Positions 50,101 to 52,270 of a stretch of 64,000 nucleotides of DNA are shown in pieces. Numbering within the stretch: position 1 is the stretch's first letter; each line of letters begins with the position of its first letter. The stretch covers positions 13,885,351 to 13,949,350 of the forward strand of contig NC_079877.1 in the NCBI RefSeq assembly GCF_029227915.1. The letters run 5' to 3'. The notes under the pieces are model-generated. The model worked only from the letters and a program-made list of their open reading frames with translations, was not told the DNA's origin and ran no database searches. The stretch is from Hydractinia symbiolongicarpus (lineage: Eukaryota > Cnidaria > Hydrozoa > Anthoathecata > Hydractiniidae). A program made the position numbers and the translations under genes.

Positions 50101-52270
50101 ACAGACAATCTCCTTTTTAGTTATTTGGGCCTTGCAGCTTTTCCCCACGACAAAAAAAAAACGTTTATCTAAATCAATTCAAATTATTGTGCTGTTTAAG
50201 AAAATATTTATTTTGGTCAAACTGTCAGATAAATCTCCTGAAAGTTTGCAAAGATAGCAAAAAGTTTTCATAAAAAAAAAAAACACACAAGTTTTATTCA
50301 AAAATATGGAAATTTTACTTATGTCAGTACTTTCCTGTGACATCATCGAAAGCTTCAAATTTGTTTTTCCGAGAGCGAAATAATGTTTTAAAAATATTAC
50401 CACAATTTTTGCATAGTTTGCAGGTAAAAACACGAAAATTGGCTAGAAGTCCAATTCCCTGGTAAAAACTGAAAAAATCTGAAAAGTTTTCTAGTTAGAC
50501 ATAATTATACATACTTATTCATCCACCAAAATGTAATTCTTGAAAAAATGTTTGCAGAATCTTCAGGACATGGTAACTAATAGTGAATAAAACAAGTTAT
50601 TTTTTATAGGTCTGGACTCATTCTACAAGATATTTTAACTAAACTAACTTTTAAATGACAACAACCAATGGAAATACATGAGTTAATGCTGTTATGGATG
50701 TAACTTTTTATCACATTGAAGTCTTTACTCTTTATACCAAATAATTGTAAATAGAATTTTCTGGACTTGTGACATTCTTATACTTGACAGACTTGCCTGA
50801 AGTATTTAGCGAGAATCAAATAGGACTAGCCTGAATTATGGCCAGATAATAGGCCCTGCTCGTTAGTTAAAGAAATTTTTTTATTTAATAGTACCAGATA
50901 AGAAAAATGACACAACATGTAAACATGTAATTTTAAATTATATGTGCAGGTATTTTATTTTTTGGAGATATTTCTACATAAGATATGCCAAGTTTTTAAG
51001 TTGTCTTGCAGTATTACAAAAAATAAGCATTCTAAAAAAAACAACCTTAAATTCTTTACTTAAAGGGAACCTGCAAATAAATTATCTCTAGAGTGATGAT
51101 AAAATGTTTCCATAAAAAAAACTCCAAAAAAGAGAAAAAAAATTATATACAAAAATTCACCCTTTCAGTTTATTTTGTCGAACACTTCTTCCAGCAAAAT
51201 TTTTGTTCATTGAAAAAAATATGGTTGCAAAGCTCTTATTCAGCTATAAAAAACTTAACACGTGGTTCCAAAAATATAGCATAATTTGTGTTACAATAGC
51301 TGTTTTGTGGATTTACCAGTTTCCATTTTGTTAGCTCACACTTGACAAAGTAAATTTTCATTAAATTAAAACAAGTGTAAATAAGTGGACCCTCATAGTA
51401 TATACTTTTTTCCTTCAAACTAATTGTGATTTACAAGGTTTAATAGAGATTTACACCACAAAATGTTCAAATACCTTTGCTTTTGCTTCAGGTGCATTTG
51501 GAAAGTATTTTAAGTCAAAGAATTTATCAAAAACACATGGAACCAATTTAGTATGCTCCGAATCTCCATTTCCATTTACACTAAAGACAAAATAAACATA
51601 AGTCTAGAACATGAATTTGCAGGTCCCAATGTTAAGTTTGTGGTTATACAATGCAAATCTCCATGTAGAGGATTACTGGATGCTCCTCTTTTAAAAAGTA
51701 AGAAATAATCTTACATAGAACAACTTTATCTGTTTTTGCTTTCATTTTTAATAAAGAATTTTAACGCGTTGGAGAATGTGTTGTATTTAAGCCAACCTAC
51801 TTTACATTAAGGCATGGTTACTTTAGTTCTAAAATCCAGAGATAGTAGGAGTCTATTGAGGTCAAGCTTCAACTCCTACACCAGACAGACAGTGTTAACA
51901 GTCTTCTATTTGAACAGCGTTTCAGTTATGTTTTTTGATTATTATAATATATACAGTGAAAATAAGAAATAATAAATTAATTAAAATCATTTACATACCA
52001 TGATACTGATACATTACACAAAGGTGCAAAATAAACACTTGGTACATATCCTTCTTTCCCATGTGCAGATGATTTACAAACCAGCCACCAATCAAGCGTT
52101 TTACTAATTACTTCTAATGTCTCGCCTCGTTTAAACGAAAGTTGAACATTGACTTCTGGCGATGCGAAAGAAGGAAAATTTGCATCTTGAACTTCATCAT
52201 TTAGTGGATTATAATCATACAATGCTACAATTTGTGAGGGTGGCACTGTTGGTCTCTTCTTGTTGTTCAT
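36159..52270 (-). CDS. ABCC/MRP1-type ABC transporter with N-terminal SH3 domain
   Basis: Full ABC exporter of the MRP1 group, which pumps glutathione, glucuronide and other organic-anion conjugates across membranes (family knowledge). Exons: 51999-52270, 51475-51580, 50515-50576, 49611-49742, 47741-47998, 46887-47064, 45189-46421, 43779-43862, 42496-42589, 42336-42380, 42015-42241, 41386-41898, 40988-41187, 38980-39106, 38636-38737, 38021-38167, 37705-37863, 37243-37409, 36741-36935 and 36159-36294. They total 4437 nt, or 1478 residues, and all phases agree. NBD1: Walker [10 protein letters not shown] (about 605-613), LSGGQ (695-699), Walker B IYLLDD (715-720), with Asp in place of the catalytic Glu as usual in MRPs. 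NBD2: GRTGAGKSS (1265-1273), LSVGQ, ILVLDE, AHRLNT. An SH3 domain replaces TMD0. The start ATG at 52268-52270 has an in-frame TAA 12 nt upstream. ABCC1-like is the best class; which vertebrate MRP is the closest cannot be settled by eye. Confidence 0.88.
36527..36577. repeat. Hairpin in the last ABCC intron
   Basis: TCATGAACAATCGAGTTCAT and the reverse complement of its partner, TCATGAACAAGCGAGTTTAT, form arms of about 23 bp with two mismatches around a short loop. It could be a very small MITE or a structured intron element. Confidence 0.7.
38636..41898 (-). CDS. ABCC exons 12-15 (TMD2)
   Basis: Exon 41386-41898 spans several helices ([57 protein letters not shown]). Exon 40988-41187: [19 protein letters not shown] with the conserved IRAYG. 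Exon 38980-39106: [20 protein letters not shown] and GLSISYALQ. Exon 38636-38737: [19 protein letters not shown] and VERVKEY. All match the MRP TMD2 order. Confidence 0.88.
38793..38861 (-). CDS. Candidate 69-nt cassette exon in ABCC TMD2
   Basis: An open 23-codon segment (starts [15 protein letters not shown], ends DHETQ) lies between exons 14 and 15. It has a CTCTCCTAG acceptor and a CAG/GTAAAA donor, phase 0 at both ends. Canonical MRP sequence needs exon 14 joined directly to exon 15, so this would be an optional or alternative exon within the last transmembrane segment. No transcript evidence. Confidence 0.35.
39481..39547 (-). repeat. Degenerate LINE 3' tail (ABCC intron)
   Basis: TTTCATCATC, then TCTGTTTTCTTAGCTAGCAT and GGACAGGGTACAT, match the (TCA)n..CCATGCTAGTATTGG..GGACGGGGTA region of the LINE tail at 24155-24230. 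About 67 bp remain. Confidence 0.5.
40287..40840 (-). repeat. Dispersed repeat with tRNA-like B-box, copy 2 (ABCC intron)
   Basis: Inverted relative to the copy at 21055. On the minus strand, TTTTTGCCTCTCTGAGCACC, then GTAGTCGTGTGTTCGAATAT, then CGTAACTAACTATGACC. It contains an internal near-duplication (GCCAAATTTTGTCGAAA and GCCATATTTTGTCGAAA; ATGATGTCAC and TTGATGCCAC), so it is longer than copy 1. Confidence 0.6.
40914..40980. repeat. 27-bp tandem repeat with CRE-like sites at a splice donor
   Basis: GCAATGTCGTGATGACGT..T plus ATGATTA or TTGATTA is repeated at 40914 and 40941, with a partial copy at 40968. TGACGTCA (a CRE palindrome) lies at 40926-40933. The last partial copy touches the donor of ABCC exon 13 (40981-40987). 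Confidence 0.75.
42015..43862 (-). CDS. ABCC exons 8-11 (end of NBD1 and the inter-half linker)
   Basis: Exon 43779-43862 has the H-loop: [20 protein letters not shown]. Exon 42496-42589 has [20 protein letters not shown]. Exons 42336-42380 (45 nt, phase 1 both ends) and 42015-42241 form a Ser/Glu-rich linker ending QEETSETGR, the MRP ..EET...G(Q/R) junction. The 15-residue exon could be skipped without changing frame. Confidence 0.82.
44266..44305 (+). repeat. 3' end fragment of the CTAGTC..CCCGTCC repeat family
   Basis: GACGGACAGACGCATACGGG, then TATTATAAT. It matches the 3' end of the copies at 53516-53660 and 63121-63237. It lies in an ABCC intron. Confidence 0.5.
44518..44549. repeat. 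Short palindrome
   Basis: TTCGTGCTTAAAGTCATGAC and its inverted partner TTTAAGCATGAA form a near-perfect 32-bp palindrome just left of the inverted-repeat element. Confidence 0.6.
44578..45040. mobile_element. 463-bp inverted-repeat element in an ABCC intron
   Basis: It starts CAGGGTTCAGAGTGGC, and the reverse complement of its end is CAGGGTTCAGTGTGACC. TCCTT flanks both sides (44573-44577 and 45041-45045). The right part is full of CCCTGG/TTTCC units that resemble one another. An 89-residue frame inside (44800-45069) is a by-product of the repeat. Confidence 0.6.
45189..46421 (-). CDS. ABCC exon 7 (rest of TMD1 and NBD1)
   Basis: An unusually large 1233-nt exon (411 residues). It carries [53 protein letters not shown], and then NBD1 with Walker A, Q-loop (AQQAWIQN), signature [16 protein letters not shown] and Walker B with the D-loop. 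It ends KNK at a weak GTTTAA donor in phase 0, exactly where MRP1 continues with TRILVTH. Most other exons of this gene are under 300 nt, so several introns were probably lost here. Confidence 0.92.
46887..47998 (-). CDS. ABCC exons 5-6 (start of TMD1)
   Basis: Exon 47741-47998 has a Lys/Glu-rich loop, then [21 protein letters not shown] and SPFLL (first core helix). Its donor is GTACGA. Exon 46887-47064 encodes [20 protein letters not shown] and the helix ending [23 protein letters not shown], as in MRP1 (LHQYF...AVYRK). Confidence 0.85.
49611..51580 (-). CDS. ABCC exons 2-4 (linker into TMD1)
   Basis: Exon 51475-51580 encodes a linker with [19 protein letters not shown] and no recognised domain. 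Exon 50515-50576 encodes [19 protein letters not shown], matching the CPE...FLSRITFWW start of the MRP core. Exon 49611-49742 encodes [16 protein letters not shown], matching the MRP1 LIVRGYRQPLEGSDLW segment. Phases are 0, 2 and 2. Confidence 0.85.
51999..52270 (-). CDS. SH3-domain exon 1 of the ABCC gene
   Basis: The exon encodes a Src-like SH3 domain at about residues 13-84. It has the ALYDY motif (VALYDYNP), then a longer than usual RT-loop ([18 protein letters not shown]). [16 protein letters not shown] and [14 protein letters not shown] follow. The binding-face residues ALYDY, WW and P..Y are all present. The donor GTATGT leaves phase 2, which the acceptor at 51580 completes (Cys). No SH2 or kinase exon follows in this region, so this is not a Src kinase gene. 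Confidence 0.85.

Follow-up and report, generated by a model that had tools for sequence, protein, structure and literature searches.

A predicted SH3 exon in place of TMD0 at the start of an MRP1-type transporter gene in Hydractinia symbiolongicarpus

Does an ABC transporter gene of Hydractinia symbiolongicarpus, a colonial hydroid and relative of the jellyfish, begin with an SH3 domain where its MRP1-type relatives carry TMD0? The question arises from a 64,000 bp stretch of this genome (NC_079877.1, positions 13,885,351 to 13,949,350, called the window below), for which an earlier note, made from the sequence alone, described such a fusion. SH3 is a compact docking module, familiar above all from Src kinases. 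Through profile, genome and splice-site analyses, we consider it probable that the TMD0 exons of an MRP1-type (ABCC1/2/3-like) gene were lost and that a first coding exon of Src type, taken up by capture, now opens the gene, which would encode SH3, L0/lasso and a full MRP core. As a predicted gene model, the SH3-MRP fusion is supported as a new domain architecture within a known transporter family.

Structure of the predicted gene

The genome searched comprised 480,894,487 bases in 76 contigs, and the window lies within contig C3. The gene runs on the minus strand from 52270 to 36159 in 20 predicted exons, with an open frame of 1,478 amino acids. Exon borders were drawn manually with homology, phase and splice signals as guides, and 19 of the 19 introns have GT-AG borders. 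The features are as follows.

51999..52270, minus strand: exon 1, 272 nucleotides (nt), ATG and SH3 domain (about residues 14-83 of 90), phase-2 donor ATG/GTATGT
51475..51580, minus strand: exon 2, 106 nt, 35-residue linker, leading from phase 2 to phase 0
51490..51510, minus strand: class-I SH3 ligand motif KYFPNAP (residues 115-121), within exon 2
50515..50576, minus strand: exon 3, 62 nt, start of L0/lasso, aligning to human MRP1 from residue 206
49611..49742, minus strand: exon 4, continuation of L0/lasso
45189..47998, minus strand: exons 5-7 (47998-47741, 47064-46887, 46421-45189), first transmembrane domain and most of NBD1
42015..43862, minus strand: exons 8-11 (43862-43779, 42589-42496, 42380-42336, 42241-42015), end of NBD1 and inter-domain linker
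36159..41898, minus strand: exons 12-20 (41898-41386, 41187-40988, 39106-38980, 38737-38636, 38167-38021, 37863-37705, 37409-37243, 36935-36741, 36294-36159), second transmembrane domain, NBD2 and stop

The SH3 exon had been said to splice in phase through two short exons into a complete MRP1-type transporter, with an in-frame stop before its ATG; both statements hold in our gene model. Exon 1 ends in phase 2 and exon 2 has 3n+1 bases, giving phase 0 at exon 3 as needed for in-frame joining, and the MRP part is open down to the stop at 36159. A TAA lies in frame at 52282-52280, three codons 5′ of the ATG, and the stop-to-stop frame is 52279-51977.

The transporter core matched the MRP equivalog profile TIGR00957 with 1695.7 bits (cut-off 1470), protein residues 124-1468 aligning to profile positions 197-1522 of 1522; positions 1-196, the TMD0 part, were unmatched. 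The protein contains two stretches each of PF00664 (transmembrane) and PF00005 (nucleotide-binding), and MRP1 came first among solved relatives for both halves. Among the human MRP1 residues that we take to contact the substrate, K332, H335, Y440, R1197, N1245, W1246 and R1249 are conserved (counted along alignments), while T550 is replaced by S and W553 by L. NBD1 carries LLDDP and NBD2 LVLDEA, a pair which, as read from the motifs, agrees with one ATPase site being degenerate and the other consensus, a pattern given in a part of PMC10886794.

Exon 7, searched against the whole genome, had 32 matches. Apart from exon 7 itself (100%), two of them covered most of its length at 24-25%, and the others were short segments within conserved ATPase motifs, at up to 76%; therefore no second close MRP1-type copy was found. 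A cluster of ABCC-like genes on both strands was seen on contig C7 at about 17.36-17.52 Mb.

The SH3 domain of exon 1

The Pfam profile SH3_1 (cut-off 22.9) matched exons 1-2 (126 residues) with 39 bits (E=6e-10), and the whole 1478-residue protein with 31.5 bits. The match spans only profile positions 14-48, because this SH3 carries 16 inserted residues after ALYDYNP in comparison with the Src-type SH3 domains of the same genome. The best solved relative of the domain is the SH3 of Src (E=3.5e-8), and the solved relatives were mostly Src (best 60 of 291). The canonical ligand-binding residues are present in ALYDY, DWW and GYVPSVY. A single-sequence AlphaFold model of exon 1 was too poor (pLDDT 43.0, pTM 0.26) and was not used. 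On these matches the SH3 assignment is beyond chance, and the description of the first exon as a Src-like SH3 agrees with them and with the genome search below, in which kinase genes of Src type come next.

Origin of the SH3 exon

Searching the genome with exon 1 returned exon 1 itself and then two genes on contig C8, at 12.44 and 12.45 Mb, whose SH3 domains are 43% and 35% identical to it over 45-46 residues (E=8.7e-4 and 3.6e-3). Both have an SH3 followed by SH2 and kinase frames; from this order, and from the kinase sequence as read by eye, we assign them as Src-type. Their first coding exons (383 and 338 nt) hold an ATG, the whole SH3 and a phase-2 donor, like exon 1 of the MRP gene. This common layout suggests that an MRP1-type gene captured a Src-type first coding exon. 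A scan of donor phases in other SH3 exons was not used as a statistic, since it picked wrong donors for both Src-type genes.

The capture would date back far enough for the sequences to have diverged strongly, the ligand-binding residues being retained. A recent copy of another SH3 gene was ruled out, the nearest being 43% identical over 45 residues.

If so, the locus would be a clear case of first-exon replacement, in which start codon, domain and donor phase moved as one unit.

Search for TMD0, SH2 and kinase exons

The window was extended by 60 kb upstream (124 kb, extended coordinates), and the TMD0 of human ABCC1 was used as query. Exon 3 was the sole convincing match (E=2e-5). Ranking after it at E=0.15 were matches interrupted by stops, at 112.7 and 110.0 kb in extended coordinates, on the far side of the upstream neighbour, presumably NDUFS2, a name given by match to the human sequence. 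This neighbour (at C3:13959351-13969350) is on the minus strand, as is the MRP gene, and ends at extended coordinate 79079, about 27 kb from exon 1; the 5′ limit of the SH3-MRP gene is therefore set there.

With default word size, the human query gave in 36001-79200, besides exon 3, only matches of E=1.1 or worse, and the TMD0 of an ABCC gene on contig C9 gave at best E=1.5 in the same region. Through a hydropathy scan of minus-strand stop-free pieces of at least 60 residues in 52271-79078, we found one with two transmembrane-like stretches, which by eye is not TMD0-like. Within the first 250 residues of the fusion protein, the maximum 19-residue hydropathy is 1.17. As positive control under the default-word-size settings, the human query recovered the TMD0 of the C9 gene, 160 residues without stops, at E=0.021 in 70 kb. 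The Pfam TMD0 profile gave two weak matches in the genome, neither over the cut-off.

A single open frame of 405 residues in the C9 gene (about 23.838-23.839 Mb) covers TMD0, linker and the beginning of the first transmembrane domain; our guess is that this gene is ABCC10-like.

One further stretch, C8:9572921-9573097, resembled the end of TMD0 and L0 of MRP1; the alignment contains stops and shows 37% identity over 57 columns (E=0.006 in the query search, 0.14 at genome size). No other MRP core or TMD0 part was found within 6.4 kb around it, and its likeliest explanation is coincidence or a defunct relic.

Queries taken from the SH2 and kinase parts of one Src-type gene in this genome reached at best E=1.4 in the 124 kb. 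The absence of SH2 and kinase exons, claimed before, is borne out by this search, and so is that of a TMD0 between SH3 and transporter, in that moderately sensitive searches found no credible one as far as NDUFS2. From the sequence, the loss of TMD0 near the gene is well supported, not proved.

An alternative is that the gene has two first exons, with the SH3 start used beside a promoter farther upstream that gives a TMD0 isoform whose exons the searches missed. We consider this unlikely. Exon 1 is separated from NDUFS2 by 26.8 kb of repeat-rich sequence, and TMD0 is usual in MRP1-type proteins, which together with the limited sensitivity leaves room for such exons; however, neither the two TMD0 queries nor the hydropathy scan revealed a TMD0-like exon there.

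Assignment of exon 1 to the transporter gene

The start methionine in exon 1 is the sole methionine before residue 145, which lies inside L0/lasso; no other occurs from exon 2 up to that residue, and the gene must therefore take its start from an exon farther upstream. Between exon 2 and 55640, just one phase-2 start candidate (ATG to donor) reaches a donor score of at least 5, and this is the SH3 exon. At a donor score of at least 3 there are eight, of which the other seven span 6-51 residues. Farther upstream, to 79078, we found 11 start candidates of at least 40 residues, among them frames of a LINE-like element. The sites of intron 1 rank in the top 4.2% of GT and the top 4.9% of AG, within the range of the trusted introns of the gene. 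The acceptor of exon 3 is weak (top 24% of AGs), the exon nonetheless being fixed by homology. In a codon score trained on exons 3-20 (range of these exons 0.056-0.533 bits/codon), the remaining frames of exons 1 and 2 were negative. For exon 2, no similar sequence was found elsewhere in the genome.

With a donor at 52082, exon 1 would shrink to 63 residues and could be spliced straight to exon 3 in phase 0, but the SH3 would then be cut. That the SH3 belongs to an upstream gene, as its last exon or an internal one, was ruled out: the in-frame TAA lies directly 5′, and no acceptor scoring above 2 was listed in 52180-52467. Spliced-leader addition to some Hydractinia transcripts is described in a part of PMC11067881; a short or missing exon of the 5′ untranslated region is therefore unsurprising.

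Several points weigh against the fusion with loss of TMD0. The codon scores are low (exon 1 +0.087, exon 2 +0.029 bits/codon), and among 896 intron windows free of stops, 8.1% attain the exon 2 value. The donor phase shared with the Src-type genes has a one-in-three chance. The TMD0 control, at 27.3 bits, stood barely above the best noise match of 25.4 bits, so that the sensitivity of the search is moderate; at genome scale the C9 TMD0 was missed both by the Pfam profile and by the protein query, and a divergent TMD0 in several exons could escape such searches. The fusion is read from one species, and we infer that its spliced transcript exists.

The low scores of exons 1 and 2 would also suit a separate small SH3 gene of 97 residues, its donor unused, with the transporter beginning at another unrecognised exon. 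Read-through of the exon 1 donor meets a stop, and the seven other start candidates up to 55640 offer possible beginnings. Against it, the exon 1 donor ranks high and its phase fits, and by inspection the other candidates hold no known domain; we regard such a separate gene as quite unlikely.

Very improbable, in our view, is an assembly artefact that placed a stray SH3 exon ahead of the MRP gene. Dense repeats upstream of exon 1 would favour it, as would SH3 matches on contig C1 in equal-scoring pairs, which hint at duplicated assembly there. Against this, the window is free of N, exon 1 is single-copy in the genome (next match E=8.7e-4), and the published assembly, according to a part of PMC10411563, was made from 66x HiFi reads with a contig N50 of 28.8 Mb. 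Captured first exon and MRP core in one gene is the reading that we prefer.

The pairs on C1 were four (near 12.15/15.73, 11.88/15.47, 14.19/17.86 and 7.00/9.26 Mb), two of them offset by about 3.59 Mb; large parts of C1 may be duplicated or have been assembled twice. The LINE-like element lies just upstream of the SH3 exon on the minus strand (55637-59649), with frames of 322, 700, 153 and 181 residues that by eye are endonuclease/reverse-transcriptase-like. A tandem array of 21 bp in 24.6 copies, with one frame open, was found at 549-1065 of the window.

Proposed working of the fusion protein

The proposed course begins with a replacement at the 5′ end of an MRP1-type gene, by which a Src-type first coding exon came in and the TMD0 exons went. 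With the five-helix TMD0 lost, the N-terminus would lie in the cytosol, and there, as on no other side of the membrane, an SH3 can be of use and could meet proline-rich ligands. The core would keep exporting organic anions and glutathione conjugates, because MRP1 works without TMD0 and most of the checked substrate-contact residues are kept. Transport without TMD0 is possible for ABCC1 (leukotriene C4) and ABCC3 according to a part of PMC10886794, where TMD0 is also said to serve partner contacts and targeting in long ABCC proteins. The SH3 would assume this role, through PxxP partners or through contact in cis with the linker; such replacement of one docking module by another would be the simplest mechanism. 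Tethering of the pump to proline-rich partners, as the earlier note proposed, may be the outcome, a latch in cis on KYFPNAP being the alternative.

Two [RK]xxPxxP motifs occur in the fusion protein (0.2 expected in shuffles), both within the first 126 residues. KYFPNAP, the only strict class-I motif of the protein, lies in the linker 32 residues past the SH3, and such a motif was present in 0.6% of linker shuffles; the motif class was picked after looking at the sequence, and the result is a lead only. A doubtful but suggestive extension is that of an SH3-gated pump, in which the captured SH3 would close on KYFPNAP in its own L0 linker beside the lasso; binding of proline-rich partners would release this latch, and the transporter would thereby be positioned or switched. 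If true, an autoinhibitory module of the signalling type would occupy the place of TMD0 in an ABC transporter.

The fusion would connect metabolite export with SH3 signalling and, should transcripts bear it out, may give the pump a new mode of placement or control. The reason for TMD0 in long ABCC proteins is called still unclear in a part of PMC10886794. An animal MRP1-type gene that swapped TMD0 for a soluble docking domain would be a natural experiment on its purpose, and Hydractinia symbiolongicarpus is a species kept in laboratories. By title and abstract, in a search that left subscription journals mostly outside, we found no report of an SH3-ABC fusion or of a cnidarian ABCC TMD0.

Comparison with known systems

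The predicted protein shares with MRP1/ABCC1, ABCC2 and ABCC3 (TIGR00957) the L0/lasso, the two transmembrane domains, LLDDP in NBD1 and LVLDEA in NBD2, and differs in having SH3 and linker where they have TMD0. In being without TMD0 it resembles the short ABCC proteins MRP4 and CFTR, whose N-terminus is in the cytosol, as is expected here; unlike them, its sequence is MRP1-type, and we know of no SH3 in either.

With the Src-type kinases at C8, which hold the nearest SH3 domains of the genome, the gene shares the whole SH3 and ATG in one exon with a phase-2 donor. It differs from them in the 16-residue insertion and in having no SH2 or kinase match in the 124 kb. A myristoylation signal needs an MG start, as in Src-type proteins, whereas the fusion protein starts with MNN and so has none. 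The proposed latch between SH3 and KYFPNAP resembles the SH3-linker clamp that controls Src. SUR1 and TAP offer a further parallel, since their TMD0 is described, in a part of PMC10886794, as a partner-binding module: there the N-terminal add-on that recruits partners is a membrane bundle, and in Hydractinia it would be a soluble SH3.

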